Source: a virus. Taken from it: a stretch of 45,168 bases of DNA. Under the pieces are notes generated by a model. It ran no database searches and was not told the origin of the DNA. It worked only from the letters and a program-made list of their open reading frames with translations. The stretch is taken from positions 1 to 45,168 of the IMG/VR virus record IMGVR_UViG_3300033149_001366. One strand, given 5' to 3'. Position 1 is the stretch's first letter. The number at the start of each line of letters is the position of its first letter. Below are positions 9,405 through 44,542 of the stretch, piece by piece. The translations under genes and the position numbers were made by a program.

Positions 9405-9413
9405 TACGTAAAA

Positions 9414-21458: not shown

Positions 21459-22915
<1,457 letters not shown>

Positions 22916-26144: not shown

Positions 26145-26172
26145 ATTATAATACACAAACTTAAAAAGTCAA
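26145..26172 (-). promoter_or_regulatory. Leftward sigma-70 promoter
   Basis: TTGACT (26167-26172), 16-nt spacer, TATAAT (26145-26150). The -35 is embedded in GTCAAGGGAAATTTT (26168-26182), which is identical to the sequence around the -35 of the leftward promoter at 33.36-33.39 kb. It would drive the sigma-like gene and the SSB and downstream genes. The interval 26002-26181 holds no gene. Confidence 0.75.
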
Positions 26173-26181
26173 GGGAAATTT

Positions 26182-26448
26182 TTATTTATTTTTTCTAGAA
26201 GAGAGGAAAGAATTATTTCTTTTCCAATCTTCAAATACAACGGGCATTCTTGTCCGAAAACATAACATTAATTCACCAAATTTGGGATTGTTTTTATCTA
26301 TATCTAATATACCTAATTTTAATTTATTACTACCATTTGAAATACTCCCAATCATCCAAAACTCTTTATTCTCATGTTGACATATGACTATATTTACGTT
26401 TTCATCATTCTTTAACATCTCAATTATTTCACCATAATCATTAGTCAT
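26182..26448 (-). CDS. Small paralogue family member 1 (LR-x3-P signature), 88 aa
   Basis: One of seven small proteins in this window that share a C-terminal block; here LDIDKNNPKFGELMLCFR then TRMPVVFEDWKRN. The N-terminus is a short amphipathic helix (YGEIIEMLKND), and the middle is a few beta-like strands. The frame is in register with the clamp loader gene upstream, separated by TGA TCA. No family name is known to me. Function unknown; the members all lie beside replication or AAA+ genes. Confidence 0.75.
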   Translation of the reverse strand: MTNDYGEIIEMLKNDENVNIVICQHENKEFWMIGSISNGSNKLKLGILDIDKNNPKFGELMLCFRTRMPVVFEDWKRNNSFLSSRKNK

Positions 26449-26451
26449 TGA

Positions 26452-27387
26452 TCAGTTTCCGTGCAAATGTAAAAATGCTTCTCCAACCATTCTAATTAAC
26501 TTAGCCTTATGATTACTTGCTAATGGCACTGAATCAGTAAATACACTCAATGCTAACACAAACTTCTCTATTTTATTAACATTTTTACTATTCTTTATAC
26601 AACTTGCTAAATAATTAGATAACACAATCCTGTATCCTTCAGGTTCATCTTCAATATTATTTAATAAAGTTCTAACATTGTCCCAATTACCTTTTACTAA
26701 TGCTTTTGCCAAATCAAATGCTTCTTGTTCGTTTTCTTCTATTTCTTTTAATATCTCTTTTATTGATTTATCCGAATCGCATGAAACTAACTTCTCAATA
26801 TTTAGCAATGCTTTACGTGGTGAACCATCAGCATTTTTCACTGCATATCTGATATAATCTTTATCCAATGGTTCATCGTATAATCTAGTCCAGGATGTAT
26901 TTATAACTTCTTCTAATTGCGCCTCCGAAAGCAAACTAGTTTTGAAGGTAACACACCTATTGCGAACAGTTTTGATTATCTTATCTGGTTCCGTGCTACA
27001 TAGTATGTAGTATTGATATTTAGGAACATCTTCTAACATTTTTAATAAACAGTTCTGTGAAGAGTTCGACAATTTGTGCGCTTCGTCCCATATTATCACC
27101 CTAGTGTTACTAAACATAGGACTATAATTTGATTCTTCACCTATCTTGCGAATATTATCTATCCCTGTTACGTCTGCTGCATTGATTTCTTGGATAGATT
27201 CGTCTGTAGCACCTAAATTCTTTGCTAATATTCTCGACAACGTGGTCTTGCCACTACCACTGTCACCCCAAAATAAGAACACATGGGGGCGGTCGGAATC
27301 TTCAATAATTCCTTTTAAAGATTGGACCACACCTCTATTACCAATTATTTCATCTAGTGACGTAGGTCTTGCTTCTTGATAAAGCAA
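26452..27387 (-). CDS. Clamp loader ATPase (RFC small subunit/DnaX-like)
   Basis: AAA+ clamp loader of 311 aa: RPTSLDEIIGNRGVV at the start, Walker A GDSGSGKT (residues 41-48), Walker B VIIWDEAHKL, sensor 1 YILCSTEPDK and the arginine-finger region VRNRCVTF, then the collar domain. It would open and load the clamp encoded two genes upstream. No separate delta-like subunit is seen, so it may be the only loader component, or use host parts. Translation starts at TTG (27385-27387) with AAGGAG 8 nt upstream, next to the polymerase stop. Confidence 0.92.
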   Translation of the reverse strand: MLYQEARPTSLDEIIGNRGVVQSLKGIIEDSDRPHVFLFWGDSGSGKTTLSRILAKNLGATDESIQEINAADVTGIDNIRKIGEESNYSPMFSNTRVIIWDEAHKLSNSSQNCLLKMLEDVPKYQYYILCSTEPDKIIKTVRNRCVTFKTSLLSEAQLEEVINTSWTRLYDEPLDKDYIRYAVKNADGSPRKALLNIEKLVSCDSDKSIKEILKEIEENEQEAFDLAKALVKGNWDNVRTLLNNIEDEPEGYRIVLSNYLASCIKNSKNVNKIEKFVLALSVFTDSVPLASNHKAKLIRMVGEAFLHLHGN

Positions 27388-27391
27388 TTAA

Positions 27392-29866
27392 TCAACTCCT
27401 TCTTCTGAAACTATCAATAGGTTCCATGTTATACCAATTAATTCCTTTTTCCCACTTAACAATCAATGGCACTCCTTTTTGCCAATCCCAAATAGGCTTT
27501 GTCATTATATTACTCACTAAATCTATTACAAAATCTTCTTCATTTTCATCAACATCAAAAAGTGCTGAATCATGTGTTTGCGTAATAATTTTAGTATTCA
27601 ATTTTTCCTTAATAAATTGTTTTCTTATCTCGATTAGGTTAACTAATAATGTATGAAACGAAACACCTTGGATTTTTGAATTTAATATTTCAGTTGGTTT
27701 CAATGGACCGTATCGCCGAAATCCGGTCTCCATTTCAATATATCCGTTCTCGGCGTAAAAGTCAAGGGTTTTTTCCTGAAATTTTTTCACCCCATAAAAC
27801 TCTTTCCAGAACCCTTCGTGCATCTTTTCTATGTATTCTTGTCGTATGTATAGATTTCTAGATATGGAAGGTGGTTGGGCACCGTAAAAAGAAGGAAATA
27901 CGAAACTATTCTTTGCTTCAAACCGTTCATCATCAGTAATTGATTCAACTAAATCTTTCCACCCCTTGGTTCTAGTTCTTATTGCTTTTATTCTTGCAGC
28001 CCATTCTCTATGAAAATCTCTATTTTCGATTAGAAACTGTATTAGATTTTTATCCTTGGATAACATAGCAAGATGTCTTACTTCATTGCCGGAATAGTCA
28101 ACCTCCAATAAAAAGTCGTTTCGTGGTACGTAACATTTACGTATCTTTTTTGCTTCTGGATTTCTCTTGGGTTGCTGCTGAAAATTCGGCGAGTCAGATG
28201 AACTCCTAAATGAGCGCGCTATGTGTAAATTATATGTAGGATGTAAATAACCATCTCGTACCCATTTTTCTATTGATGGTACAAATGTGGTAATCATTTT
28301 ATTATACTTTGACCAATCCAATTTTAACTTCGCTATTTCAGCAGCAACAGAATCCCCCTTAGAAATATCAATTAGTGTTTCTTCATCTAACGTAGGATTG
28401 CCTTTTTTGGTTAATCGTTTTTGTAATCCACAAATATCATAAAATAGTTTAATACCATCATTACGTCCATTTATGTGTGGTTTGTGCCCATATTCCTTCT
28501 CGAACTTTTTACATATGTCATTAGTTAAAAAATCTTCCTTTAATGCTTCCGCTTTGTTTTCATAGTAACGTTTCAATTTCTTTAATTGTTTATCGTCTAC
28601 TTTAATTCCATTAAAAGTTAAATCAGCAAACAACGGTAATGCACCATTAAATATCTGGTAAGCCTTGAATAATTGTTTATTTTCATTTAATTTACGTTGT
28701 TGATATTTAGATAACCACCAACAGTATCTACTATCAAGCGAATTATATTTAGCAACAATAGGTAAAGGTGTTTTATCAAGATTATTGTGGTCAATGTTCT
28801 CAAAATATCTACTATTACTATGAATAAATGCCTGGAAATCCAATTTTGTTATTTTTCTTCTGTCGTCCAACACATGTGCACATAACATACTATCATGCTG
28901 AATATTATTAACATCAGCGTTCAATAATACCTTACTAACAATTGTTTCAAAATTAGCATTATGTGCAAACTTTGGTGTTTTTGATTCTAGAAATTGTTTG
29001 AAGACTTTAGATAACTTCTGCAAAAAGTCTTCAGACCATTTGTTATCAGGATGCCATAGTGGAATACAATATCCTTTAGTTGAACTAGACGCAAAAGATA
29101 AAGTAAGAATCTTTGCAAAACTATTATATGGATAAAGTGTATTTGTTTCATAATCAAATGCTACAGGTCCATCTATATCTATGATAGATTTTAGTAGATG
29201 TATTGCTCTTTTTTGTTCTAAAACTAACTCGTTTCCTTCATCTTCATCAAAAATAGGCCAATCAATAGATTTACCTAAATAAGACAGTGCATTTTTTAAA
29301 TCATCCAAGAAAAACTCATGTAAATCACTATCCTCACCACCAGAACGAATTATGTAAGAAGGGTGATACAAAGGCGCAACCCACGCATTATATCTACGAC
29401 TAGGAACAACGTATCCTCTATAAGTTCCTACGGTCATAGGTAAACTTGGTGGTGGATTTAATATTTGTTGTAATGCCTCTTCACCAAAAATAATAATCAA
29501 TTTAGGCTTATTATCAAATATTTCTTTTTCGAGCCTAGGAAAACAAGCATCTAATTCATTTTGTTTAGGTTTTCTATTATTTGGAGGACGACAAGCAATA
29601 CAGTTGGACAATAAACAATCATCATCCATATCAATACCATAATAAGACAGACATCTTTTAAGATAGTTACCAGACTTACCACAAAGTTGCCTACCTTTTT
29701 TATCTTCTGTTTCCCCAGGCGCTTGAGCAATAATCATTATTTGTTTTTTGAAATTACCAAATGGTTTCATGTGTGGGGATAAACAGTTACGGTCTAATCC
29801 GCACGCTCTACACCCGTAGAGTTCATTTTTATTATCTAACTTATTTGGGTTAAAGAAAAAAGCCAA
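27392..29866 (-). CDS. Fusion of family-4 uracil-DNA glycosylase and family A DNA polymerase
   Basis: Three parts in 824 aa. Residues 1-200 are a family-4 UDG with cysteines in YGCRACGLDRNC and NCIACRPPNNRKP (Fe-S type), AQAPGETEDKKG and a LYHPSYI motif. Residues about 225-420 are a 3'-5' exonuclease with FDYETN (Asp238, Glu240), FAHNANFE and YNSLDSRYCWW. Residues about 430-824 are the polymerase, with motif A LLEVDYSGNE (Asp590), motif B AKNSFVFPSFYGA and motif C TQTHDSALF (Asp766). Motif C has HDS where most Pol I have HDE. SPO1 polymerase has a comparable N-terminal UDG-like domain. This is the replicative polymerase, between clamp and clamp-loader genes. Confidence 0.95.
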   Translation of the reverse strand: MAFFFNPNKLDNKNELYGCRACGLDRNCLSPHMKPFGNFKKQIMIIAQAPGETEDKKGRQLCGKSGNYLKRCLSYYGIDMDDDCLLSNCIACRPPNNRKPKQNELDACFPRLEKEIFDNKPKLIIIFGEEALQQILNPPPSLPMTVGTYRGYVVPSRRYNAWVAPLYHPSYIIRSGGEDSDLHEFFLDDLKNALSYLGKSIDWPIFDEDEGNELVLEQKRAIHLLKSIIDIDGPVAFDYETNTLYPYNSFAKILTLSFASSSTKGYCIPLWHPDNKWSEDFLQKLSKVFKQFLESKTPKFAHNANFETIVSKVLLNADVNNIQHDSMLCAHVLDDRRKITKLDFQAFIHSNSRYFENIDHNNLDKTPLPIVAKYNSLDSRYCWWLSKYQQRKLNENKQLFKAYQIFNGALPLFADLTFNGIKVDDKQLKKLKRYYENKAEALKEDFLTNDICKKFEKEYGHKPHINGRNDGIKLFYDICGLQKRLTKKGNPTLDEETLIDISKGDSVAAEIAKLKLDWSKYNKMITTFVPSIEKWVRDGYLHPTYNLHIARSFRSSSDSPNFQQQPKRNPEAKKIRKCYVPRNDFLLEVDYSGNEVRHLAMLSKDKNLIQFLIENRDFHREWAARIKAIRTRTKGWKDLVESITDDERFEAKNSFVFPSFYGAQPPSISRNLYIRQEYIEKMHEGFWKEFYGVKKFQEKTLDFYAENGYIEMETGFRRYGPLKPTEILNSKIQGVSFHTLLVNLIEIRKQFIKEKLNTKIITQTHDSALFDVDENEEDFVIDLVSNIMTKPIWDWQKGVPLIVKWEKGINWYNMEPIDSFRRRS

Positions 29867-29872
29867 TTTGCA

Positions 29873-30883
29873 TTAATCCTTACTCAAACAAACTAGTATC
29901 CTAGTAAAACCATCTGATTTTGCCAATAATCTATTTTCAGTGGGACTATACATAATTGTGTTGGAAAAATCCAATAAATCTTTTAAATATTTGAGATTTA
30001 CCATAAAATTACATGGTTTATCGTCGCCTATGTATGATAAATCTTCTTCTACGTTACCTAGATTGTTGTTAGTACTCAACACTACTTTCTTCCTGGTCTT
30101 ATGAATTGTAACACCCAAGTCAGAAAAGATGGAACAACGATTCAATGTGGATTTCCAATTTTCATCTAACTTAAACTCTATACCATCCTCAATAATTTTA
30201 TCAATAAAACCATCTGAATCATTATATAATGTAATCAGTTTATTGTAATAAGTTGATTCTTTATCAAGACATTTTCCGACAAATATTGAATCATCGTCCC
30301 ACTTCAAAAATAAATCATTATTATCACTAACTAGAAACTTAACTGGTCTACCTTCAATAGTTGACAATATCTCTAAAAACTCACTATCAATAATAATTGG
30401 GGTGTCAAAAAGGTCTTTATCATTATCTATAATTGTAAGACCAACCCCATTGGAACCCATAGTTTTATCTGAAACAACCACACCATATATCATTGTTTTA
30501 CTACATGTTTTAATCTTTTCCCATGAGTTGTCTGGAAAATCATTCCATTCTTCATCAGGATATTCTAATTCAGGGTATTCCCCTTGTTCTTTATTGATTT
30601 TGATTTCGCTATTCCCATTAGACACAAGAATACAATCCTCTTTATCGTCAAATTTTAAGGCTTCATCAGCAAATGATTTTACAACTTTACATAACACATC
30701 TGGGTTAATGCAACCTTTAATTCCTAAATCCAGTTTAGTTTTACCATAAATAAGTCCATTACATGCTTCTAAATACCCGTCGGCAAAATGAAAACTCTTC
30801 TCGTTACTACTCGTGAAACTGTTTTTTGATACGAACTTCTTGAAGGTGTTTAGTACGTCTAACAGCGGTTTTGATTCAGTCAT
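29873..30883 (-). CDS. DnaN-like sliding clamp
   Basis: 336 aa, the normal size for a three-domain beta clamp. Recognisable parts are FHFADGYLEACNGLIYG near the start, KGCINPDVLCKVVKSF, repeated beta-alpha-beta patterns, and the closing FMVNLKYLKDLLDF with NRLLAKSDG. It tethers the adjacent polymerase to DNA. The ATG at 30881-30883 has AAAGGA 6 nt upstream; the longer frame reaches into the preceding gene. It lies between polymerase and a small paralogue-family gene. Confidence 0.85.
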   Translation of the reverse strand: MTESKPLLDVLNTFKKFVSKNSFTSSNEKSFHFADGYLEACNGLIYGKTKLDLGIKGCINPDVLCKVVKSFADEALKFDDKEDCILVSNGNSEIKINKEQGEYPELEYPDEEWNDFPDNSWEKIKTCSKTMIYGVVVSDKTMGSNGVGLTIIDNDKDLFDTPIIIDSEFLEILSTIEGRPVKFLVSDNNDLFLKWDDDSIFVGKCLDKESTYYNKLITLYNDSDGFIDKIIEDGIEFKLDENWKSTLNRCSIFSDLGVTIHKTRKKVVLSTNNNLGNVEEDLSYIGDDKPCNFMVNLKYLKDLLDFSNTIMYSPTENRLLAKSDGFTRILVCLSKD

Positions 30884-30896
30884 TTTTGTTCCTTTC

Positions 30897-31184
30897 TTAT
30901 CCATTTTCTTTCCATTTTTCAAATGATTTAGGCATTTTATATCTTAAGTGAAGGCATAATTCACCAAACCTAGGCCAATCAGGATGGTAACCTACTTTTA
31001 TTGTATTTATTGTATTGTACGAATTACTAAGAAAAAGAACAGATTTGGAATCACCCCATAACCAAATATCACGTTTATTATATCTATACAATGTCATGGG
31101 AAGTATGTCTTCTTTATATACAATTTGTCCTTTACTTAATATCTCAATTGCTTCGTCATAATTTTTTACTTCAGGGAAACTCAT
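30897..31184 (-). CDS. Small paralogue family member 2, 95 aa
   Basis: N-terminal helix YDEAIEILSKGQIVY, a beta-rich middle (KRDIWLWGDSKSVLFLSNSY) and the shared C-terminal block YHPDWPRFGELCLHLR then YKMPKSFEKWKENG. It is encoded directly before the sliding clamp. Function unknown. The ribosome binding site is distant from the ATG. Confidence 0.72.
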   Translation of the reverse strand: MSFPEVKNYDEAIEILSKGQIVYKEDILPMTLYRYNKRDIWLWGDSKSVLFLSNSYNTINTIKVGYHPDWPRFGELCLHLRYKMPKSFEKWKENG

Positions 31185-31206
31185 AATATAATCTTAATCT
31201 TTGTTC

Positions 31207-31596
31207 CTATTCCCATGTTCTATGCTTTTCAGCAACCCACTCCACTCCATCATAGTCTTCAATAATATAATCAACATCATCCGGTATTTCTACAACTTTT
31301 AAATCAGAAAATCTATTATTTGCTTTCTCTTTCAATTCTTCAATTACTTGGATAAGCAATGGGTCTGACCTATGTTCATAAAACCAAGTATCCCAATACC
31401 TTTCCCCGCGTTTTATATCGTCATTATCAATTTCATATCGTTTTTCTTCTGGAGTAAGTTTTTTGTCAAAAATTACCTTTCTCCCTTCTTCTTTATTCTT
31501 ATATTCTTTCGTTGGAATACCTAATTCAATCAAACGTTCATACGCCTTATCACTAAGACCAAAACCACCATAAGATTTGTTAATTACCACTTTCAT
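31207..31596 (-). CDS. Conserved phage protein, VVINKSYGGFGLS type, 129 aa
   Basis: MKVVINKSYGGFGLSDKAYE, then RSDPLLIQVIEELKEKANNR, LKVVEIPDDVDYIIEDYDG and VEWVAEKHRTW form a pattern shared by many uncharacterised phage proteins. No catalytic motif is evident. ATG 31594-31596 has GGAG 7 nt upstream; GTG six bases earlier is possible. It ends in TAG. Confidence 0.8.
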   Translation of the reverse strand: MKVVINKSYGGFGLSDKAYERLIELGIPTKEYKNKEEGRKVIFDKKLTPEEKRYEIDNDDIKRGERYWDTWFYEHRSDPLLIQVIEELKEKANNRFSDLKVVEIPDDVDYIIEDYDGVEWVAEKHRTWE

Positions 31597-31834
31597 TTTC
31601 ACTCTCCTTCTCAGATTCTCTATTTCTCCAATAATTATTAACTACTTCTTCGTGAGTCAACCATTTGAAAACTTTGTTACTTTTAATATCATCATAAACA
31701 TATTTTCCATAACCTTGTTCAACAATTGCGTCTTGCCAACTATAATCTGAAATAATTGCAAAACTGAAACCAATAAAAAACCCAATCAAAATTATAATAA
31801 AAGCACCTATAATTAAATCGGTTTTATCCCACAT
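31580..31834 (-). CDS. Small single-span membrane protein, 84 aa
   Basis: The N-terminus spans the membrane (LIIGAFIIILIGFFIGFSFA). The outer or inner domain carries the common phage pattern WQDAIVEQGYGKYVYD followed by KVFKWL, and the tail is charged (ESEKESENESGN). Start ATG 31832-31834 with AAGGAG upstream. Function unknown. Confidence 0.7.
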   Translation of the reverse strand: MWDKTDLIIGAFIIILIGFFIGFSFAIISDYSWQDAIVEQGYGKYVYDDIKSNKVFKWLTHEEVVNNYWRNRESEKESENESGN

Positions 31835-32576
31835 TTTCTTGCTCCTTTTCCTTAAAATACATTCCCTTTTCATCTTCAACTAGAATCAGATTAGTCTTTT
31901 TAATTCCGTCTCGTTTCCACTCACAAACTAATCGTTTGATATATTTCGGGTTATCTTTTCCTGGCATCCCCATTCTGCATTTTTCGTATAATTCTTTTCT
32001 GCTTCCGATTCCGTTCTCAATCATCTCAAATATTATAGCAGATTTCGTCCCCGGTGTAAAGGGGTTTTCCCGGATTTTTTTCTTTTTTTCTTCCTGGACT
32101 TCTGCAATCAATTTCGCGTGGTGCGTATTGAATCTGGTCCCGTTTTCGGGGTGCTGCCATTTGCAATTACCTAATTCTATCCACCCACTATTTCTCAAGA
32201 AATCTACAATTTCTGATGTTTGTTTTTTGCATTTTTTCCATTCTACAATACTACTAATCTTGCATTGTTTACATGCTTTCTCATATGCACTATAACCCCA
32301 TCCAAATGCGGGACACCTACTAGTGTTTTCCGTTACTTTATACTTTCGTTCTTTCCCATTTCTGCTGTAAATGTCCGTTTCAGTCACCGCAAAATATTTA
32401 ATAGGTTCAAAGTCAGGTAATACAGCCTTGAAATATACTCCATCTTGAGGGTTTATTTGCAAATGTTCCGGTAATATTTTAACAGGAACCCAAACAAAAT
32501 CAAGAGTTCTTCTATCTCGATACTCTTGGTAATAAGCAGGACCATCCCATATAATTTTTTTTGTATTGAATTCCAT
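31824..32576 (-). CDS. Hypothetical protein with cysteine cluster, 250 aa
   Basis: Not identified. The N-terminal part contains VPVKILPEHLQINPQDGVY, a motif (LP-x2-LQINP-x-D-x-VY) also present in the protein at 32877-33338. The middle has cysteines in ACKQCKISSI and KKCKKQ, possibly a zinc site. The C-terminal part (IGSRKELYEKCRMGMPG, YIKRLVCEWKRDG) looks like a helical DNA-binding segment. Overlaps the next gene's start by 11 nt. Confidence 0.65.
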   Translation of the reverse strand: MEFNTKKIIWDGPAYYQEYRDRRTLDFVWVPVKILPEHLQINPQDGVYFKAVLPDFEPIKYFAVTETDIYSRNGKERKYKVTENTSRCPAFGWGYSAYEKACKQCKISSIVEWKKCKKQTSEIVDFLRNSGWIELGNCKWQHPENGTRFNTHHAKLIAEVQEEKKKKIRENPFTPGTKSAIIFEMIENGIGSRKELYEKCRMGMPGKDNPKYIKRLVCEWKRDGIKKTNLILVEDEKGMYFKEKEQENVG

Positions 32577-32899
32577 TACAATAAACCTAGATTTTTACTA
32601 TAATTAAAAAAATCCTCGAAATAAGTTCTCAATAGTAGTAATATATAACCTCTATTTGGAAAGTTATCATGTTTTAAATTTACCTCAAATCCATAATCAT
32701 CATTATCAATTCCCGGTCCAAGTAATTTTATAGATTTAGTCGCAGTAGACAATGCATAACCATCAAAGTCTTCGTTACGAAAACAATCAATTGAAGAACC
32801 TTCTATGGAAAATTCCTCTGGTTCAGGATGTTTATCTGGATTCTGGCAAACTTCTAAAAGCAATTCTATAATTTTATTAGATATCTCTTCGTCGGTCAT
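32576..32899 (-). CDS. Small paralogue family member 3, 107 aa
   Basis: N-terminal helix ISNKIIELLLEVCQ, variable acidic middle, and the shared block FEVNLKHDNFPNRGYILLLL followed by RTYFEDFFNYSKN. I chose the ATG at 32897-32899 (AAGGA upstream); an earlier ATG at 32935 lies inside the upstream gene. Its stop codon and the next gene's ATG share one base. Function unknown. Confidence 0.7.
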   Translation of the reverse strand: MTDEEISNKIIELLLEVCQNPDKHPEPEEFSIEGSSIDCFRNEDFDGYALSTATKSIKLLGPGIDNDDYGFEVNLKHDNFPNRGYILLLLRTYFEDFFNYSKNLGLL

Positions 32900-33338
32900 T
32901 TTTATACAATTCCTTAGTGTTTTTGTAACACTCATACATAGATGGTATATTAACCCTCATTAATAAAAACAAATAACCAATACCATAAATATTTTTACTT
33001 AAATCTAGTTCCCCAATTTTGATTCCATAACTTTTATTTGTTGGTTTTTCTGGTTTACTATAAACAACCCATTTATTGTTTGAGAAATCAAATACTATGT
33101 TGTAATTTGGACCTGCCGGATCAATATCAATCCAATTGGGGTATACCCTATCTTTAGGATTTATTTGTAATTGTTTCGGTAATATGTAGTCGTGATAACC
33201 ATCTTCACAATAATTCAAATAAAGCAATTCTGAATGATGTTCAGAAGAAGATGTAGTAACGGCATAATAAAAATTGCGAGTTTTGTCTTCTTTGCAGTCT
33301 GTGAATATTCGAGTTAGAAGTTTAATTATTGTTATCAT
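32877..33338 (-). CDS. First gene of leftward early operon; paralogue family member 4, 153 aa
   Basis: The protein combines two motifs found in neighbours: ILPKQLQINPKDRVY (as in 31824-32576) and a C-terminal block GELDLSKNIYGIGYLFLLMR then VNIPSMYECYKN, a divergent copy of the seven-member family signature. I chose the ATG at 33336-33338: the -10 of the leftward promoter covers an upstream in-frame ATG (33360-33362), and GGAGGG lies 10 nt before 33338. It would be the first translated product from that promoter. Confidence 0.7.
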   Translation of the reverse strand: MITIIKLLTRIFTDCKEDKTRNFYYAVTTSSSEHHSELLYLNYCEDGYHDYILPKQLQINPKDRVYPNWIDIDPAGPNYNIVFDFSNNKWVVYSKPEKPTNKSYGIKIGELDLSKNIYGIGYLFLLMRVNIPSMYECYKNTKELYKNDRRRDI

Positions 33339-33360
33339 CACAAACCATCCCTCCATTCTC

Positions 33361-33389
33361 ATTGTAGGAAAATCTAACCCCTAGGTCAA
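33361..33389 (-). promoter_or_regulatory. Leftward sigma-70 promoter of the divergent pair
   Basis: TTGACC (33384-33389), 17-nt spacer, TACAAT (33361-33366). Transcription would start near 33354, leaving a short leader with GGAGGG before the ATG at 33338. The sequence GTCAAGGGAAATTTT (33385-33399) around the -35 recurs at 26168-26182. Confidence 0.82.
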
Positions 33390-33423
33390 GGGAAATTTTC
33401 CAAAAAATTTTTTATTTTCCCCG

Positions 33424-33452
33424 TTGACAATACCCAAGGGCCCGCCTATAAT
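33424..33452 (+). promoter_or_regulatory. Rightward sigma-70 promoter, perfect consensus
   Basis: TTGACA (33424-33429), 17-nt spacer, TATAAT (33447-33452). Both hexamers are perfect. The spacer contains GGGCCC, and an interrupted inverted repeat (CCCAAGGGCC ... GGCCCACATTGGG) covers the -10 and the start site, a possible operator. The two promoters are 34 bp apart at their -35 boxes, with an AT-rich palindromic GGAAATTTTCC between them. Confidence 0.88.
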
Positions 33453-33479
33453 CCTATACATGGTCGTTCAGGCCCACAT

Positions 33480-33812
33480 TGGGCATCTGGATTTTTCGAT
33501 ACAAAAGGTTCGATGAAATGTTGAAAATGAATCAACCAGGCAAAACAGAAAACAGGCTGGGTAAAACATTACAAAAAACATTATGCAAAACAACGGTAAA
33601 CATTATACAAAAATGAAGCAAAAACACAATATGTTGTGCTTTTCCAGGCAACTACCTACAATGGTTGGTAGAAAATTCAAAACATTATACGCTATATATA
33701 ATATATATAAGGCTTATATGTAAACAGTAGTATTTTCCAAAGTAATATAATTAGCAGTTAATATTAGGCGTATAATGTTTTGGTATAATGTCTGCTTTTG
33801 AAAGGGTTTGAC
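33480..33812 (+). promoter_or_regulatory. Untranslated leader with repeated ACATTATAC motifs; possible origin/operator region
   Basis: No gene is seen in this 333-nt stretch. AAAACATTAC/ATGC/ATAC motifs occur at 33563, 33575, 33597 and 33679, with inverted copies at 33768 and 33782. The copies AAAACATTATACGC (33679-33692) and GCGTATAATGTTTT (33768-33781) are perfect 14-bp complements. Between them is a TATATA-rich stretch. A 9-of-10 stem AAAAACACAA/TTGTGCTTTT (33620-33643) could attenuate transcription. The inverted copies also supply TATAAT -10-like hexamers close to the first gene. Initiation of replication or autoregulation by the HTH protein downstream are both plausible. Confidence 0.6.
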
Positions 33813-34694
33813 ATGTCTGACTTGATTGGTAGAAAAGAAGTAGCCAAACTATTCAATGTGAAGTACCCAACTGTACAACGTCTAGAACAGAGGGGATTGA
33901 TCCATCCTAAATACGTTGGCAATTATAAAGATGGAAGAAAAAAGAGAAAATATGATAAAAATGAAGTTATAAAGGCTGCCAAAAAATACAAAGTTATAAG
34001 AAACATGAATAATAAAATAAAACAACAACCTTACATAATTAAAAATAGTGATTATAAAAAAGTAATCAACCTCTGGAATAGCAATTGTAAACAACAACCT
34101 GAATTACGTAGTAAGAAAGTGAATAGCAAAGATAATCCTACGTTGATTAAACAATTACGTGGATTGCAAAGAATAAGCAATCTCGATTATATAAAAGAAC
34201 AAATCCAATCCTATTTCGATTGTTGCCAAAAGAAAAAACATTTGCGGGATGGCAATAATTTTGCATATTTATCCTTGACTTCCTTCTTGAAGCGAATCTA
34301 TACTGATTTGAAGAATAAGAATCATCATTGGTGGAATAAAGTTCAGGATAAAGTTGAAATTGAAGACAAACATCCTAATTTAACTAGAAAGTTTGCTTAC
34401 AGGTATGCTCAAGAGTTCACTGATTACGTGTCAATAGAGTTAAAAAATCCTAGCAAAGAGTATTCTATTTTTAAAATCGCTGGTGATTACTTTAAGAAGT
34501 TATTCGATGATACTAAAAAATGTCCAATGTTTATGTCATTATCCAAACAAGAACGGTTTGATTTTGTGTTTAATGCGGTATTCTCATGTGCTAGAAATAA
34601 AGGTAATTGGGTTGAAATGAAGTTGTTTGCTAGTAAGTATTTTTGGGATGATGTTAGAGAACATATAAGACAATTAGGAATACCAACTGTTTAG
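33813..34694 (+). CDS. MerR-like HTH protein, possible replication or transcription regulator, 293 aa
   Basis: The N-terminal 60 residues are a MerR/excisionase-type winged helix-turn-helix: LIGRKEVAKLFNVKYPTVQR, LEQRGLIHPKYVGNYKDGR, RKYDKNEVIKAAKKY. The remaining 230 residues are basic and helical, with no domain recognised. I chose ATG 33813 (AAAGGG 7 nt upstream) over an in-frame TTG at 33798. As the first gene after the motif-rich leader it is the natural candidate to bind the ACATTATAC repeats. Ends with TAG. Confidence 0.75.
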   Translation: MSDLIGRKEVAKLFNVKYPTVQRLEQRGLIHPKYVGNYKDGRKKRKYDKNEVIKAAKKYKVIRNMNNKIKQQPYIIKNSDYKKVINLWNSNCKQQPELRSKKVNSKDNPTLIKQLRGLQRISNLDYIKEQIQSYFDCCQKKKHLRDGNNFAYLSLTSFLKRIYTDLKNKNHHWWNKVQDKVEIEDKHPNLTRKFAYRYAQEFTDYVSIELKNPSKEYSIFKIAGDYFKKLFDDTKKCPMFMSLSKQERFDFVFNAVFSCARNKGNWVEMKLFASKYFWDDVREHIRQLGIPTV

Positions 34695-34708
34695 AGAGGA
34701 GGGTTATA

Positions 34709-34927
34709 ATGGAACATGTTAGACCAATGAAAGATGTACGAAGTTATGGCGAAGATTTGGGTGTTCATCTCGGTAAGATTGAAAAATGTGATTGCAATGA
34801 TGAAAATGACGCTGGGCGATATGTAGTTATTGCTTATAATGATAGGGGGTATAATTACACAACGGTAGACTTGGTTGACTTGATTAATTGGGTAAGAAAC
34901 AATAAACCGGAATTATTAGATGATTAA
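34709..34927 (+). CDS. Hypothetical protein, 72 aa
   Basis: Not recognised. Acidic, with EKCDCNDENDAGRYVVIAYN and a C-terminal TTVDLVDLINWVRNNKPELL helix. GAGGAGGG precedes the ATG, and its end overlaps the next start (ATGATTAATG). Confidence 0.7.
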   Translation: MEHVRPMKDVRSYGEDLGVHLGKIEKCDCNDENDAGRYVVIAYNDRGYNYTTVDLVDLINWVRNNKPELLDD

Positions 34928-35168
34928 TGCAAACTTAGCAGATTTCATCAAGGATGAATGTGCTAACTACAAGAACAATGGTTGCATTTTATCAAAGTAT
35001 CATATATGTAAAGTTATAAATAATAACGAAAGATGTAGTTATTTCGAGGTCTTTGTTTTACCAAATGCTGTAAAAGGTGGACGGAAAAATAGAAGAGTTA
35101 AACCTAGGAACGATGTCGGAATCGTTGCTGAGTATCGTCAAAGAGTTGAAAAGGCAAATAATGCATGA
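34920..35168 (+). CDS. Cysteine-cluster phage protein, 82 aa
   Basis: The series DECANYKNNGC, HICKV and NERCSYFEVFVLP follows a recurrent phage pattern in which four cysteines precede a YFE-x2-VLP motif, probably binding zinc. The C-terminal third is basic (GGRKNRRVKPRND). Function unknown. It ends in TGA followed directly by TAG. Confidence 0.7.
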   Translation: MINANLADFIKDECANYKNNGCILSKYHICKVINNNERCSYFEVFVLPNAVKGGRKNRRVKPRNDVGIVAEYRQRVEKANNA

Positions 35169-35268
35169 TAGACACGCGCCAGAATCGCTTTCTTCATTTA
35201 TAACAATGATACAATCAATGTTTTTTAATAGAAAATCGCAAAAAGGTATCCAAGTACCATTTGGGTAA
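35077..35268 (+). CDS. Possible overlapping small ORF, 63 aa
   Basis: A GTG-started frame, or one from ATG 35113, overlapping the end of the previous gene and filling the gap before the helicase. It reads MSESLLSIVKELKRQIMHDR, then SLSSFITMIQSMFFNRKSQKG. It is a credible helical protein, but neither start has a good ribosome binding site. The rest of the interval to 35325 holds only AT-rich sequence and the AAAGGG site of the next gene. Confidence 0.4.
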   Translation: MDGKIEELNLGTMSESLLSIVKELKRQIMHDRHAPESLSSFITMIQSMFFNRKSQKGIQVPFG

Positions 35269-35325
35269 AAAAGACGATTTTACGTTCTATAATAATCATT
35301 TTTAATAAAAAAAATAAAGGGCAAA

Positions 35326-36780
35326 ATGAACCATCTTTCAAACTACATTAGAAATAGTATTATTTATTTGAGCATAACTGACGATAACTTCATTTCCGTT
35401 GTTTCTGGGATAGACCTATCCTCTACATTTCTGAATCCGATTCCATTCGATTGTTTTAGTATTTGTGTTAAGTTTTATAAACAATTTAATTCAGCCCCTA
35501 AAAATCATTTTCAAGATGAATTGAATAAGTTCATAGATAAATATTCCGATGCAGAAAAGAAGCAATATTATAGTTATATTGAAACTATACAGAAGATGGA
35601 TAAACCTGATGTTAAATATATCATATCAAGATTACATGGATGGATACGTGAGCAGCAGTTAAAAAATGCACTATTAGATGCTTCTGAAATTGTGGATTCA
35701 AACCCTGATAAAGCATCTTCCATTTTATATAATGCTTTGCAATCTGGTATTGAACAGGAAGAATCAGGATTAGATTATTTTAATGATTATGATAGTTTAA
35801 GGTCACGTAGTCAAGGTATAGAATATTTAATGCAAAGTGGGATAACTGAATTAGACAGATTGATTGGAGGTTTTACTAGGGGCAGGTTTGTTACAATTAT
35901 GGGTGAGTATAAAGGACTTAAATCATGGTTCTTAATGCATTTAGGTAAAGTGGCATTATTCAATGGTCTAAATGTGGTTCATATAAGTCACGAAATGAGT
36001 CAACAAGAGGTTGAGGAACGTTACGACCAATTAATAAGTGGTTTTATGGTTGATGGTAAACCAGGCCCAAACAAGAATCCGTTAAACAGAGATAGGCCGG
36101 AAAGTGATTGGGAAGTTAAATACTGGAAGTTGTGTGATGACAATTTAGTAAAACAAAAGAAAGTTGTAGTTCCGTCAGTATTAAATATTCCATTAATTAT
36201 AAAGAACAGAAATAGAATCAAAAATACTTGTAAAGGTAATTTACGCATCCGAAAATATCCACCATTAACGTGTTCGATGGAACGTTTAAGAAATTACTTA
36301 CACTATTTGGAACATTTTGATGGGTTCAAGCCGGATGTAATTATAAATGATTATGTGGATGATATGGATTTATCAACTTACGATGAACAATTAAGACATC
36401 AATTAAATGATGCTTATTTAGACCACAAAAGACTTGCGGATGAATTGAATGCGCTTGTAATAACTGCTTCACAAGTTAATAGAAAAGCGATTGAATCGCC
36501 AATAATGGACAAAAGAAACTTTGCAGAAGATTTACGCAAGGCCGGTAATGTTGATATGGCAATCGGAATATGCAGAAGTTCAGTAATGAAACAGATGGAT
36601 AGGGCCAATTTATTCGTTGTGGTGAATCGTACTGGCAGTGATTCCGTATGGTGTCAAATCGGTACGGCAGTCCAAGCAGGTCAATTTGCCGTGTGGTCAT
36701 TGTCTTCAAAGGAAGCAAAACAACAAATGGACGAGATTGAGGATAGTATAAAACAAGGTAAAATGTTAGGGGAATTGTAG
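35326..36780 (+). CDS. DnaB-like replicative helicase/RecA-fold ATPase
   Basis: An N-terminal helical domain (about 1-165) is followed by a RecA-type core: SGITELDRLIGGFTRGRFVT, then the P-loop position MGEYKGLKSWFLMHLGK, VVHISHEMSQQEVEERYDQ, VIINDYVDDMD as Walker B, and VITASQVNRKA (the DnaB SQxxR-like motif). It should unwind DNA with the primase encoded at 38.6-39.5 kb. The P-loop has leucine where the second glycine is expected (GEYKGLKS). AAAGGG lies upstream of the ATG. Length 484 aa is normal for the family. Confidence 0.85.
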   Translation: MNHLSNYIRNSIIYLSITDDNFISVVSGIDLSSTFLNPIPFDCFSICVKFYKQFNSAPKNHFQDELNKFIDKYSDAEKKQYYSYIETIQKMDKPDVKYIISRLHGWIREQQLKNALLDASEIVDSNPDKASSILYNALQSGIEQEESGLDYFNDYDSLRSRSQGIEYLMQSGITELDRLIGGFTRGRFVTIMGEYKGLKSWFLMHLGKVALFNGLNVVHISHEMSQQEVEERYDQLISGFMVDGKPGPNKNPLNRDRPESDWEVKYWKLCDDNLVKQKKVVVPSVLNIPLIIKNRNRIKNTCKGNLRIRKYPPLTCSMERLRNYLHYLEHFDGFKPDVIINDYVDDMDLSTYDEQLRHQLNDAYLDHKRLADELNALVITASQVNRKAIESPIMDKRNFAEDLRKAGNVDMAIGICRSSVMKQMDRANLFVVVNRTGSDSVWCQIGTAVQAGQFAVWSLSSKEAKQQMDEIEDSIKQGKMLGEL

Positions 36781-36863
36781 TGTTGAAAATAAACAAAATA
36801 TACAATGAAAACTGTAAAAAGAATAAAAGAAGCGAAGAGCAATTTATTCGTGAGAATAAATAA
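36780..36863 (+). CDS. Possible micro-ORF between helicase genes, 27 aa
   Basis: A GTG-started frame begins inside the previous stop (TAGTG) and ends with TAA directly abutting the ATG of the next gene. It encodes a charged, lysine- and glutamate-rich peptide (MLKINKIYNENCKKNKRSEE). GGGG lies upstream. The neat junctions support it, but length is too short for certainty. Confidence 0.35.
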   Translation: MLKINKIYNENCKKNKRSEEQFIRENK

Positions 36864-38306
36864 ATGAACATTAAACAACTGACAAATAAACAACTGGATT
36901 CTTATTTAGATGGTTTTGTATTTAAAACAGAACCTTTTCGACATCAAAAGATTTCGATACTTTTTGCAAAAGACAAAGATAGGGTAGCCTTTTTTCATTC
37001 TATAGGAAGTGGTAAAACTGCCTGTAGTCTTTATACGGCTCAAGTGTGGGATGTTAATAGGATTTTGGTAGTGTGCCCAACATCGGTTATTACAACATGG
37101 AAACAAGAGGTTAGAAAACATACTGATTGGAGTTTTGAAGAGTTAACTGGTACTACTCAAGAACGTTTTGACAAGTTTCTGCAAAGTTCTGCAAATGTTG
37201 ATTGTATTAATTGGGCAGGACTTAAGTATTTGTTTTGTTCTAAAGGTGAAAAAGGATTTGAATTGGATGCTGATAAGTTTGTTGAAGTTGATTATGATTG
37301 TCTTATATTAGATGAATCCCATAAATGTAAAGATTACAGGACAATACAAAGTAAAATAGTTAAATTACTAAGTCAGATTATTGGGAAATGTATCATGCTC
37401 ACTGGTTCACCGATAAGTAATAATGAGTTGAACTTGTGGAATCAGTACGATGTTTTAGACCAAGGTAAAACATTGGGTAGAAACTTTTTTGTTTATCGTA
37501 ATAATTATTTTAAGCCTATTAAACATAAAACACGGAACAGGAGTTGGACTGAATGGAAACTGAAATCTTTAGAACATAGGGAACAGATACTGGATAAAAT
37601 AAGCAAATCTACACTCAGATATGATATATCTGAGTGTATGAACTTGCCGGAAGTATCTTATGTTAAACGGTATGTTAATTTAACTAAGAAACAACGGGAT
37701 TTTATTGATGATATAGTCAGTAATATACAAATAAATGAAGATGATGTTAATTTATCGAAATCTAATTATAATAAGGCTATGAAAATAGCACAGATTACTG
37801 GTGGTACTGTTTTAGATGACGATGGTGAATCTTATATATTCAAAAAGAATCCAAAATTGAATGAGTTGGAAGATATATTAATGGAGACAGATGAAAAGGT
37901 AATTATATTTCATGCTTTTGTAGAAGAGGGCAGAGAAATAGAAAAGTTATGTAAGAAGAATAATTGGAATTATGCTTCGTTGCGTTCTGAAATTAAGAAT
38001 AAATCAAGACAAATTGAAAGATTTCAAAATGACAAAAATTGTAGATTTTTAATAACACACCCTATGAGTGGTGGTTTGGGATTAAATCTACAAATGGCCA
38101 GGATTGCTATATTTTATAGTATAGGTTTTTTGGGTCACTTGATAAGACAACAAGCCGAAGGAAGAATCAAAAGAGCAGGACAAAATAAAACATGTTTATT
38201 CATAGATTTGGTAGCCAAGAATAGTATAGATGAACATTTATTAGAGGCAATAAGTGATAAACGAAAGATTGCAGAAGCAATCCTAAATTATTTATCCAAG
38301 TTATGA
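36864..38306 (+). CDS. SNF2-family DNA helicase/translocase
   Basis: Superfamily 2 motor of 480 aa with all main motifs: Walker A FFHSIGSGKTA (Lys51), Ia VVCPTSVITTWKQE, Walker B DCLILDESHKC, motif III MLTGSPISNN, then in the second lobe VIIFHAFVEEG, FLITHPMSGGLGLNLQ and motif VI RQQAEGRIKRAGQ. It could remodel forks or displace proteins from DNA. It ends in TGA, overlapping tail-to-tail by 6 nt with the leftward gene at 38301; a read-through would add only Trp-Arg-Phe before TAG. Confidence 0.92.
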   Translation: MNIKQLTNKQLDSYLDGFVFKTEPFRHQKISILFAKDKDRVAFFHSIGSGKTACSLYTAQVWDVNRILVVCPTSVITTWKQEVRKHTDWSFEELTGTTQERFDKFLQSSANVDCINWAGLKYLFCSKGEKGFELDADKFVEVDYDCLILDESHKCKDYRTIQSKIVKLLSQIIGKCIMLTGSPISNNELNLWNQYDVLDQGKTLGRNFFVYRNNYFKPIKHKTRNRSWTEWKLKSLEHREQILDKISKSTLRYDISECMNLPEVSYVKRYVNLTKKQRDFIDDIVSNIQINEDDVNLSKSNYNKAMKIAQITGGTVLDDDGESYIFKKNPKLNELEDILMETDEKVIIFHAFVEEGREIEKLCKKNNWNYASLRSEIKNKSRQIERFQNDKNCRFLITHPMSGGLGLNLQMARIAIFYSIGFLGHLIRQQAEGRIKRAGQNKTCLFIDLVAKNSIDEHLLEAISDKRKIAEAILNYLSKL

Positions 38307-38630
38307 CGGTTTTAGTTTCTTTCGATTTTTCCTAATTTTTTCAAAGAATTCAGGAAATCTAGTTCTTAATATTAATGAAATGTAACCTCTGTTTGGGAGA
38401 CTTTTGTCGTCCAAATTAATTTCGGTTCCATTTTCTGCTATTTGTTCCGCTTTAGCCAATTTAATTTTGTTTGTAGATGCATAAAATATAAGTATTGGAT
38501 TTTTCCATGAATTATTAGGAACATAAACACAAGCATCAGCAGAACCAATATATTCGGCATCACAATCAATGTCATCTCTCATAAGGAAATTAATTAGATT
38601 GTCTGACAATTCTTTACTAGATGTTTCCAT
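38301..38630 (-). CDS. Small paralogue family member 5, 109 aa
   Basis: Helix LSDNLINFLMRDD, beta-rich middle (ACVYVPNNSWKNPILIFYAS) and the shared block INLDDKSLPNRGYISLILR then TRFPEFFEKIRKN. Its start lies 37 nt inside the primase gene, and it is the last gene of this leftward cluster. No terminator separates it from the converging helicase gene. Function unknown. Confidence 0.7.
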   Translation of the reverse strand: METSSKELSDNLINFLMRDDIDCDAEYIGSADACVYVPNNSWKNPILIFYASTNKIKLAKAEQIAENGTEINLDDKSLPNRGYISLILRTRFPEFFEKIRKNRKKLKPS

Positions 38631-39541
38631 TTGTTCATACCATACTTTCGTATAAAGGTGTCCGGGTCATACCCATGTGGCAATCTCACGTATTTTACTG
38701 TTCGACCTAAATCTTGCCACCATGCTACTTCTCTTTGCGCTGCATTTATGGCGTCGGAGTCCCATGCTATAATGATTTTTGCATTGTGTTCCAATAGTAT
38801 TGTTCTCTGTTCTGCTGATAGCCTCTTGCCAAATGAACCTACTGCCTTTTCCCCGATTCTCCATACGTCGGTTACACCTTCTACAATTATTAATTCATCG
38901 TTGTTCAGATTTTTATTCAATCCATATAAATAATGATTGGCTTTAAATCCAGCGGGAAATTTATATTTTGATTTAGCATTTTTAGTTATATCTGCTGCTT
39001 GGAATCCTACATAATTATTATTTCTATCATAAATTGGAATGATTAAACAATAGGCATATTTACCTCTATCACAATATTTAACACCCCAGGAGTTCAACAA
39101 TTCAATATCGAATTGTCTACGTTTGCACCAATTATCAACTTCCAAAAATCTATTTGGTCTTAAATCATATAAAACTTCCGGTTTTTCTATCTTTATGTTT
39201 GCTATTTTATCTTGTCGTATGTTCTGTCGTAAGTTTGATTTGACCGTATCTTCAATGGATTCTACATGTAATTTTGTGTTGTCAACTAATGATTTGTATT
39301 GTTCAAAAGATAACCCTGTTAGTTTATTTAATATTTTGTATAAATTGCCGGTTTCGTTACACCGCCAACAACTAAAATTTCCTTCTTTGAAAATACCAAG
39401 ATGAAATGATTTATCTTTAGTAAGCCCATGTTCTTCACAATAAGGACAACAAACTCCTATTACACCAACACCAACATTTTTGCATGGACCTATACGATAT
39501 TTGATGTTGAGTCTCTTTAATATTTTCGGTAGGTTACCCAT
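38594..39541 (-). CDS. DnaG-type primase
   Basis: 315 aa with an N-terminal zinc ribbon (CCPYCEEHG and FSCWRCNETG), a linker, and a Toprim catalytic domain: LIIVEGVTDVWRIG with the conserved glutamate, and IIIAWDSDAINAAQ with the DxD. A YCLIIPIYDRNNNYVGFQ segment typical of phage primases sits between. It would prime lagging strands together with the DnaB-like helicase. The ATG follows the preceding stop with a short overlap. Confidence 0.92.
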   Translation of the reverse strand: MGNLPKILKRLNIKYRIGPCKNVGVGVIGVCCPYCEEHGLTKDKSFHLGIFKEGNFSCWRCNETGNLYKILNKLTGLSFEQYKSLVDNTKLHVESIEDTVKSNLRQNIRQDKIANIKIEKPEVLYDLRPNRFLEVDNWCKRRQFDIELLNSWGVKYCDRGKYAYCLIIPIYDRNNNYVGFQAADITKNAKSKYKFPAGFKANHYLYGLNKNLNNDELIIVEGVTDVWRIGEKAVGSFGKRLSAEQRTILLEHNAKIIIAWDSDAINAAQREVAWWQDLGRTVKYVRLPHGYDPDTFIRKYGMNKWKHLVKNCQTI

Positions 39542-39881
39542 TTAATTTTACTCTATCCTTTAAATGTTCAAAGAATCCAGGATATTTTCTTCTCAATAAT
39601 AATAATATATAACCTCTATTCGGAAAATCGTCATTCTCTATATTTACTACATCTTCTTCGTAAACATATTTATGTTCTGGTGGACACAAGTATAATTTAC
39701 TTCCACGAATTTTTATATTGTTGCTATTTCCTTTTCTGTTGGATAGATTTCTTATATGCAACCCCCAAGTAAGTTCACCAAAATGGGTGTATTCTTCTGC
39801 TATGAAAGTAAGCCCATTAGATAGTAAACTCTTCTTCGTTAATAATTCAATAATCTTATCGGATTTTTCTTTATCATTCAT
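39534..39881 (-). CDS. Small paralogue family member 6, 115 aa
   Basis: Helix KSDKIIELLTKKS, a middle beta-rich part (IKIRGSKLYLCPPEHKYVY) and the shared block VNIENDDFPNRGYILLLLR then RKYPGFFEHLKDR, closest in sequence to member 3. The ATG overlaps the upstream TGA (ATGA). Encoded directly before the primase. Confidence 0.72.
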   Translation of the reverse strand: MNDKEKSDKIIELLTKKSLLSNGLTFIAEEYTHFGELTWGLHIRNLSNRKGNSNNIKIRGSKLYLCPPEHKYVYEEDVVNIENDDFPNRGYILLLLRRKYPGFFEHLKDRVKLNG

Positions 39882-40546
39882 TTTTTATCGAACGTTTTGC
39901 CTATTGCTGCCATTGCTATGATTGCGTCTTTAATAGTTAATCCTTCTATTTGCAATAATGTGTATTTTGCCGATGTATTAGGTCTAATAGTTACAGTTGT
40001 ATTAGGTTTATTTTTGAGTCTTGTTTTAATATTACCAATTAATTTTCTTGAGGTATATGGTAGTGTATAAAATTCAGCCTTTCCCCAATTGTCTGATAGA
40101 CATTCATTAATCAAACTTTTAATTGTTTCCGAGCATAAATGTTTTGCTTGGTCTGATATTTCCTTACTATCTCGTTTACTAATACCAGCACCTATTTTTG
40201 GTAGCCAATCATTTTGTAATGTTTCTACGAACCCTTTTATATTGAACGTTCCTAAATTATCCTTGATCATATATGTTCTTCTTAAATACCCGACTAAAAT
40301 TGGTGGGTCACATATTCCATCGTATGTGAATTGAACAGCGCGAGCGAATGAACCATTTTTTCGTTTTCTATATGATTTCCTAATACATATATAATTGGTG
40401 TAGTTTAATACAGTATAATCCGAACTTAATTCAATGCGTTGTGTTTCGGTATCTACTTTATCAATGAAATTATATTTTTCCAACTGATTTTTAGTAAAAT
40501 GAAGTACCTTATTCCATAATTCATTTGTCCAATCGGTGGGAACCAT
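39878..40546 (-). CDS. Hypothetical protein, 222 aa
   Basis: Not recognised. A mixed fold with a basic patch (ICIRKSYRKRKNGSFARAVQ) and a C-terminal beta/helix segment (TTVTIRPNTSAKYTLLQIEG, LTIKDAIIAMAAIGKTF). The position between an HTH protein and the primase suggests DNA metabolism; this is context only. AAGGA precedes the ATG. Confidence 0.65.
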   Translation of the reverse strand: MVPTDWTNELWNKVLHFTKNQLEKYNFIDKVDTETQRIELSSDYTVLNYTNYICIRKSYRKRKNGSFARAVQFTYDGICDPPILVGYLRRTYMIKDNLGTFNIKGFVETLQNDWLPKIGAGISKRDSKEISDQAKHLCSETIKSLINECLSDNWGKAEFYTLPYTSRKLIGNIKTRLKNKPNTTVTIRPNTSAKYTLLQIEGLTIKDAIIAMAAIGKTFDKK

Positions 40547-40556
40547 TTCATTTTCC

Positions 40557-40847
40557 TTAATTATTTTCTGTTTGTTCTTCCTCGTTTTGGGGTTTCTCCG
40601 CTACAAGGATTCTGTTTCCAAACTTAATGTGTTTAATTACGTCGCGTCTAATCCAATCATATATTCGGCGTACTTCATAACCTGTATCTTTAGACATCTC
40701 CTGTATGGTTCTCCAGTTGTCCTGATAAATAAAAGCAAATGCTTTTTCTATTTCCTCATCAGTGGCGCCATAGATTTTTAGTATTTGTTTAACTCTTTCT
40801 CGTGCTTGAATTATTTTCAGGCACTCATGCACGTTATCACCAACCAT
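40557..40847 (-). CDS. HTH DNA-binding protein, 96 aa
   Basis: A helix-turn-helix is visible in IYQDNWRTIQEMSKDTGYEV followed by RRIYDWIRRDVIKHIKFGNR, which reads like a winged HTH with its wing in IKFGNRILVAEK. The N-terminal half is helical (ECLKIIQARERVKQILKIYG). ATG 40845-40847 is preferred; a TTG at 40871 within the upstream gene is less likely. A regulator, target unknown. Confidence 0.7.
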   Translation of the reverse strand: MVGDNVHECLKIIQARERVKQILKIYGATDEEIEKAFAFIYQDNWRTIQEMSKDTGYEVRRIYDWIRRDVIKHIKFGNRILVAEKPQNEEEQTENN

Positions 40848-40860
40848 CTTGCTTAACCCC

Positions 40861-42048
40861 CTAATCTTCAACCTTTAATAATTCACCGAATGGAGGTTGT
40901 TCTACATTTGTTTCCCATGTAACCCATAATGTTTTGTATTCAGGTTGTTTATTTGGATAAGTTCCATGAGTATCGGTGAAATATAACATTCCATTTGGTG
41001 GTGTTATTAATGTATTTTCAACCCACTCAAATGCAGGCCCAAAATCTGTACCACCACCACCCGTAATCTCATAATTGGCTATGGATTCATCTTGTGTGTA
41101 ATGTGCATGATTCCTAGGTGATGTATCACAACTTATTATATCCACTTCACATTTCAATGTATTGCGTAAGTCTTGCACAGCGCCTAAAAACTTACTTAAG
41201 ATTTCATCGGACCAACAACTACCACTACTATCAATAACGATTACAATATTACCAATTGTCCATCCATCACGTCCTGGCATGTAAATGTCTTTGATTCGCC
41301 TATTTCTCGTTAACCATGTATATTGGTCTTTTATACGTTCGCTTAACCAATTAGCCAAAACTTGTCGCCAATCAATTTTACTTGATAATAAATCTTTAAC
41401 AAGATGTTTAATACTACCAGGTAGATTACCTATTTTTTTAGTAGATGCAATAGCATCAGCAATATGTGCTTTCCATTTATTTTGTTCACCTTCCTTATCA
41501 GTTCCTATGGGTGCATCTAAAACAATACCAGGGATTTTTATTTTTTCATTACTTTGGTTACTTTGGTTATTACCTATTTGTATCATAATTTTATCAGCGT
41601 TTTTGTATAGTTCATTATAAACTTCTTCCGACGATTTTTCTTTGTATTTTCTATCAAATAGAGCATGACTAGGTTTTTTTCCTACATTACAATCTTCCAA
41701 AATCAGATTGATTACATAATCGGTTGCTACGTTCCACAGTTTAGGGATTCGTGACCCTCTTCGTATCTGATGATTTAACATACAATGTAATATTTCGTGA
41801 ACAATACAAAACAATAATTCATCCTTCTCTAGTTCATTTACAAAATCTTCACAGTAAAATAACTTGTGGCCATCTGTTGCTAATGTGTGTTTTAACCCCA
41901 TTTGATTTAATTGCTTCTTCATTTCTTCGTCCATTGATTGTAAATCAAGATGCAAACTGAGAGTACCCCAAAATGGATACCCCCAAATTGCTTCTGAACG
42001 AATTTCCTTGATTTTCTCCAATGGACTCATAGACTCAAACTTAATCAT
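40861..42048 (-). CDS. VWA-like/putative metallopeptidase protein (DUF2201 type)
   Basis: The N-terminal half has a zinc-protease motif, FCIVHEILHCMLNH (His84, Glu85, His88). The C-terminal half has a von Willebrand A-like domain beginning NIVIVIDSSGSCW (D-x-S-x-S metal site), with TGGGGTDFGPAFEW and LYFTDTHG. This pairing is known from DUF2201-type proteins that work with MoxR ATPases, here the ATPase encoded just upstream at 42371-43534. The complex could remove metal or remodel a target; target unknown. ATG 42046-42048 has GGAGAG 7 nt upstream; the protein is 395 aa. Confidence 0.88.
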   Translation of the reverse strand: MIKFESMSPLEKIKEIRSEAIWGYPFWGTLSLHLDLQSMDEEMKKQLNQMGLKHTLATDGHKLFYCEDFVNELEKDELLFCIVHEILHCMLNHQIRRGSRIPKLWNVATDYVINLILEDCNVGKKPSHALFDRKYKEKSSEEVYNELYKNADKIMIQIGNNQSNQSNEKIKIPGIVLDAPIGTDKEGEQNKWKAHIADAIASTKKIGNLPGSIKHLVKDLLSSKIDWRQVLANWLSERIKDQYTWLTRNRRIKDIYMPGRDGWTIGNIVIVIDSSGSCWSDEILSKFLGAVQDLRNTLKCEVDIISCDTSPRNHAHYTQDESIANYEITGGGGTDFGPAFEWVENTLITPPNGMLYFTDTHGTYPNKQPEYKTLWVTWETNVEQPPFGELLKVED

Positions 42049-42361
42049 TTTTATCTCTCCATTCACAATATTGTTTGTACCAATTCCAAGCATGTGGTTG
42101 TTTATATCTTAATAATAGACAAACATAACCAAATTTAGGGTGTTTTGGGTCTAGTTCAATTACTTGCATTGACTTTGTGTGTTCTTTTCTAATAACAAAA
42201 AAGAAATGATATTTATCTTGTTTGTTCTTTGGGATTATATTAATACCTATCGATTTAAAATAAAAGCCGGATGCTAAACAAGGTGAATAATATTTTAATG
42301 AATTTTCTTCGTTTTGTTTTAATATAAGTATCATATCATCTAATGTTTTTGGAACATTCAT
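42041..42361 (-). CDS. Small paralogue family member 7, 106 aa
   Basis: Helix LDDMILILKQNEEN, beta-rich middle (YHFFFVIRKEHTKSMQV) and the shared block IELDPKHPKFGYVCLLLR then YKQPHAWNWYKQY. It is encoded between the MoxR ATPase and the VWA-like protein, interrupting a pair that is normally adjacent. Its stop overlaps the ATG of the VWA gene. Confidence 0.72.
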   Translation of the reverse strand: MNVPKTLDDMILILKQNEENSLKYYSPCLASGFYFKSIGINIIPKNKQDKYHFFFVIRKEHTKSMQVIELDPKHPKFGYVCLLLRYKQPHAWNWYKQYCEWRDKND

Positions 42362-44529: not shown

Positions 44530-44542
44530 CAATACACTCCTT

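Follow-up and report, generated by a model that had tools for sequence, protein, structure and literature searches.

The window, by which is meant the entire 45,168-base stretch of DNA that was analysed, is a tailed-phage record from IMG/VR. It encodes terminase, portal, RecA, SSB, clamp loader, PolA, sliding clamp and primase, together with DnaB, an SNF2 helicase, MoxR and a DUF2201/VWA protein. Interspersed with these genes are seven small open reading frames encoding proteins of 88-153 amino acids, denoted m1 to m7, all of which (7/7) are read from the minus strand. These genes and two accompanying promoter-like sites are as follows.

m1, 26182..26448, minus strand: 88 aa; between the clamp loader and a sigma-like gene; NPKFGELMLCFRTRMPVVFEDWK; leave-one-out E 1.5e-9.
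m2, 30897..31184, minus strand: 95 aa; immediately upstream of the sliding-clamp gene; DWPRFGELCLHLRYKMPKSFEKWK; leave-one-out E 2.3e-11.
m3, 32576..32899, minus strand: 107 aa; acidic, pI 4.3; overlaps m4; FPNRGYILLLLR; leave-one-out E 3.9e-9.
m4, 32877..33338, minus strand: 153 aa; outlier; opens the leftward early operon; leave-one-out E 0.002.
m5, 38301..38630, minus strand: 109 aa; after primase; LPNRGYISLILRTRFPEFFEK; leave-one-out E 3.7e-10.
m6, 39534..39881, minus strand: 115 aa; before primase; FPNRGYILLLLRRKYPGFFEHLK; leave-one-out E 3.1e-10.
m7, 42041..42361, minus strand: 106 aa; between the MoxR ATPase and DUF2201/VWA; HPKFGYVCLLLRYKQPHAW; leave-one-out E 3.8e-8.
Promoter-like site, 33361..33398, minus strand: AAATTTCCCTTGACC-17-TACAAT; consensus match only.
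Promoter-like site, 26145..26181, minus strand: upstream element as at 33361..33398; directly after m1; consensus match only.

The members are located in tightly packed early and replication operons, with gaps to co-oriented neighbors of -37 to +22 nt except on the downstream side of m1, where the next gene is 180 nt distant. The leftward operon behind the site at 33361..33398 contains m4, m3, m2 and m1, with m4 and m3 placed first, and the site at 26145..26181 marks its end. The element AAATTTCCCTTGAC at the leftward-operon site is seen a second time after m1, and at 16896 it is present with an additional T. The three promoter-like sites (33398, 26181 and 16896, minus strand) have in common the extended element AAATTT(T)CCCTTGAC, which is a possible phage-specific early promoter signature. 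These matches to consensus promoters suggest that the members are expressed early. Flanking DNA repeats that might provide a route of duplication were not found around the members, and the longest repeats detected there were the coding blocks themselves.

Other features of the record were observed in passing. A full-length protein with an IMP dehydrogenase/GMP reductase domain (262-1281, minus strand; PF00478, E 1e-71) is an odd cargo in a 45-kb phage and possibly has a role in nucleotide supply. The N-terminal region of PolA (27392-29866, minus strand) resembles a uracil-DNA-glycosylase domain (Cys-rich, AQAPGE) that precedes, and is fused with, the exonuclease and polymerase; this fusion is common to the closest relatives as their alignments start at residues 3-19. 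A short ORF at 21620-21928 (minus strand) reads as a lone N-terminal domain of NAD-dependent DNA ligase with the rest of the ligase absent, and two neighboring ORFs at 8886-9737 (minus strand) resemble a single split DNA adenine methylase of the Dam type. The genes for DUF3150 (43645-44562), a MoxR-type ATPase (42371-43534) and a DUF2201 metallopeptidase/VWA protein (40861-42093) form one run on the minus strand; relatives of the VWA gene occur in 601 phage records, often annotated just as HNH endonuclease or hypothetical.

The original prediction held that the seven proteins are strongly divergent paralogues of one unnamed family which share an N-terminal helix, a beta-rich middle and a C-terminal block. 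All seven ORFs are present, and their relatedness was assessed with leave-one-out HMMs in which a six-member profile was searched against all six-frame ORFs of the window. The omitted member was recovered with E-values of 2.3e-11 to 3.8e-8, and of 0.002 for m4, in each instance above the best non-member of any run, the E-value of which was at least 0.19. No eighth copy was evident among the six-frame ORFs of the window. The C-terminal blocks of the seven members can be aligned along 34 residues with no gaps and have the signature PxxGYhxLxLRxxxPxxFExxK, in which G, L and R are invariant. The N-terminal helix motif (DEAIEIL, DKIIELL and similar) occurs in six of the seven proteins but is not clearly visible in m4, the weakest member, which possesses an N-terminal extension of ~70 aa that is unrelated to the others and is 30% identical to m1 over a span of 76 aa. 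In a tree of framework residues m3, m5 and m6 form a PNRGY group with support of 95; m1, m2 and m7, the P[KR]FG[EY] group, are not resolved as a branch, and m4 stands apart. Thus, the profiles, along with the database searches described below, support old duplication and strong divergence within a single family.

Searches of Pfam, PHROGs, NCBIfam and PADLOC yielded no family match above chance: the matches in curated databases were scattered (E 0.03-0.3), covered part of a single member and were not common to the members. Even at E-values as high as 10 the family profile matched no chain among PDB sequences, and the queries that were tried gave only chance matches across 50,697 phage records. 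AlphaFold models of m6 (pLDDT 68.6) and m2 (pLDDT 54.6) were built from the same seven rows and so are not independent. The m6 model comprises a helix, strands and two C-terminal helices, the m2 model has the same outline, and in both the LxLR and PxxFExxK stretches form the two consecutive helices. The m6 model is the main source of evidence for a beta-rich middle, which has pLDDT 53-59 there. The models are too weak for fold assignment. Foldseek comparison of the m6 model with the PDB produced nothing significant (best E 0.37), and VIA-align similarly gave no significant match (best Z 3.5). The best match in BFVD, the unnamed phage protein A0A8S5RTY1, likewise was not significant (E 0.046, TM 0.51).

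Scans of IMG/VR revealed one further carrier, G051 (IMGVR_UViG_3300033149_001173, 50,355 bases), which holds two copies, n1 (L172:5961-6254) and n2 (L172:9785-10099). The seven-member profile detected n1 and n2 with E-values of 1.2e-16 and 7.9e-11 in the locus, and of 1.7e-18 and 1.3e-13 when the whole record was searched. The n1 protein is 50% identical to m2. None of the 36 other window proteins (0/36) matched G051 in tblastn at E 1e-2, and profile searches detected no clamp, PolA or clamp loader in this record, which may be incomplete. Its late genes include ordinary tail (tape-measure) and head genes, along with RNR. As homologues of these 36 window proteins were not found in G051, the family travels between unrelated phages.

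The distribution otherwise appears narrow. Motif-based scans of 84,980 prokaryote genomes (GTDB) disclosed no carrier; these scans and those of IMG/VR rely on short exact motifs that distant carriers can escape. In viral contigs the pattern P..FG[YE]..L.LR...P was confined to G051, and the sole match to PNRGYI.L.LR, in L086, was judged to be chance. A match to the former pattern in an Alteromonadaceae MAG lies inside a 26-codon open stretch and likewise was attributed to chance. Searches for related loci over viral and genome contigs uncovered no new carrier, and tblastn with m6, m7 and n1 against phages and with n1 against plasmids returned chance matches only; the Phosso and MW202744 records were inspected and rejected. 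Finally, the family profile found nothing in the surroundings of terminase and PolA relatives (2.26 Mb) or in whole related records. Overall, the seven genes and their two counterparts constitute a real, previously undescribed family with a narrow distribution and an informative evolutionary pattern.

This pattern is most evident in m2 and n1, the only pair close enough for dN/dS estimation, with 10-21 synonymous sites per segment. The dN values were 0.14 for the N-terminal 19 residues, 0.84 for the middle and 0.10 for the C block, with corresponding dS values of 0.60, 0.91 and 0.48; the middle is poorly alignable, which makes the value of 0.84 a rough one. The rate of change of the middle is roughly six- to eightfold that of the ends, and dN/dS is about 0.2 for the ends and near 0.9 for the middle. 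Judged from these substitution rates, the ends are under constraint. Given the difficult alignment of the middle and the small numbers of sites, the contrast is clear but short of proof for positive selection. Fast loops of an ordinary protein would give a similar picture. An RYN[KE]RD[IL]W patch is kept within the middle of both proteins, and the middle therefore has not simply been swapped. Pairs of paralogues in the window likewise display conserved ends.

The explanation that we favor, tentatively and at somewhat less than an even chance, is that the members form a mobile, phage-only set of small soluble accessory binders with different targets, built on a conserved helical frame with a variable middle, a function that is predicted. 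We infer the binding, the class of target and the timing in this explanation. Each copy would be made early in infection and would recognize its own partner, most probably a host protein or a component of a defence system, by way of the variable middle, with the helical frame either stabilizing the fold or providing a contact common to all copies. The copies would have multiplied through old duplication, moved between phages with common hosts and settled at gene junctions where they can be co-expressed without harm, such that the adjoining genes would be landing sites and not partners. Conserved ends and a fast middle in m2 and n1 support a modular binder, and the range of net charges across the members, -12 to +9, suits different partners.

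The modular binder of the original prediction thus gains from the m2/n1 comparison, although its accompanying proposal, that every copy binds to a machine specified by adjacent genes, does not. In the latter case the members would be replication accessory proteins that tune the clamp, clamp loader, primase, helicase or MoxR/VWA, as might be implied by the fact that all seven genes lie among, or adjoin, replication and AAA+ genes within closely packed operons. However, the closest relative of m2, n1, resides in the record in which clamp, PolA and clamp loader are not detectable. The closest phages by replication genes, L094 and L095 (PolA 33-34% and RecA 45-48% identical), have retained the gene order clamp-polA-clamp loader-SSB-RecA-primase, yet family members are absent from their clamp-to-primase junctions and from the related records that were searched. 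Moreover, the gap between MoxR and VWA in CRP-7 and phiFa is occupied by assorted unrelated small genes. Docking on neighbors loses ground on all three counts and is unlikely. The other half of the proposal, that a host factor would be inhibited, is the better one.

It is comparably improbable that the members act as regulators by binding to different DNA or RNA targets through a sheet-plus-helix fold of the PC4, PUR-alpha or Whirly type. The order of helix, strands and helices in the m6 model accords with such a fold, several members are basic, and MoSub1, the PC4 homologue BPSL1147, PUR-alpha and WHY2 are among the weak structural matches of this model. However, these matches (Z 2.4-3.3) are within noise when the overall best is Z 3.5 and the pLDDT of the model is only 68.6, and m3 is strongly acidic (net charge -12) and n1 is also negative (-3).

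In another arrangement the invariant helical ends would dock all copies on the same host machine, which might be a protease, RNA polymerase or a defence complex, with the rapidly changing middle selecting a different client for each copy. We give this arrangement little credence; if true, a single phage would be equipped with a set of modular adaptors that have one frame in common and differ in target. Conserved ends and variable middles also would be expected if the ends were assembly interfaces through which the members combined into one particle or filament, but a hetero-oligomer of this kind is quite doubtful as G051 has two copies only and the window genes are spread over separate operons. 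That the genes are largely dispensable or selfish duplicates, decaying copies retained by chance at gene junctions, is in keeping with their strong divergence and very few carrier phages, but is unlikely given that 7/7 ORFs are intact, the ends are constrained despite old divergence and flanking repeats are lacking.

Expansion of the AcrID1 type would be the best analogy for the family, in how it works and not in kinship. AcrID1 proteins of Sulfolobus rudiviruses similarly are small, divergent and accessory and are present in many copies in few viral genomes, with 26 of 35 homologues in four rudiviruses and 12 in SIRV2 (PMC11065993). In contrast to AcrID1, which has known anti-CRISPR activity, no such activity is known here; the family profile has no PDB match by sequence, and the members are inside replication operons and not clustered at genome ends. 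The hyperplastic-region genes of T4-like and other large phages also are exchanged horizontally and lie between conserved core genes, as does the family described here, although its insertions are of one paralogous family and not of assorted unrelated genes (PMC2147016). In Bacillus phage 0305phi8-36, paralogue families a, b and c consist of virion proteins to which anchoring domains are attributed (PMC2147016). They too are orphan domains repeated across one phage genome without outside homologues, whereas the present family is in the early and replication region.

The simple conserved signature of the family shows where the proteins may be cut, so that middles can be swapped and ends retained. 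Many anti-defence proteins have come from families of small viral proteins with multiple copies in the same genome. The findings also suggest that genes beside replication machines need not serve those machines.
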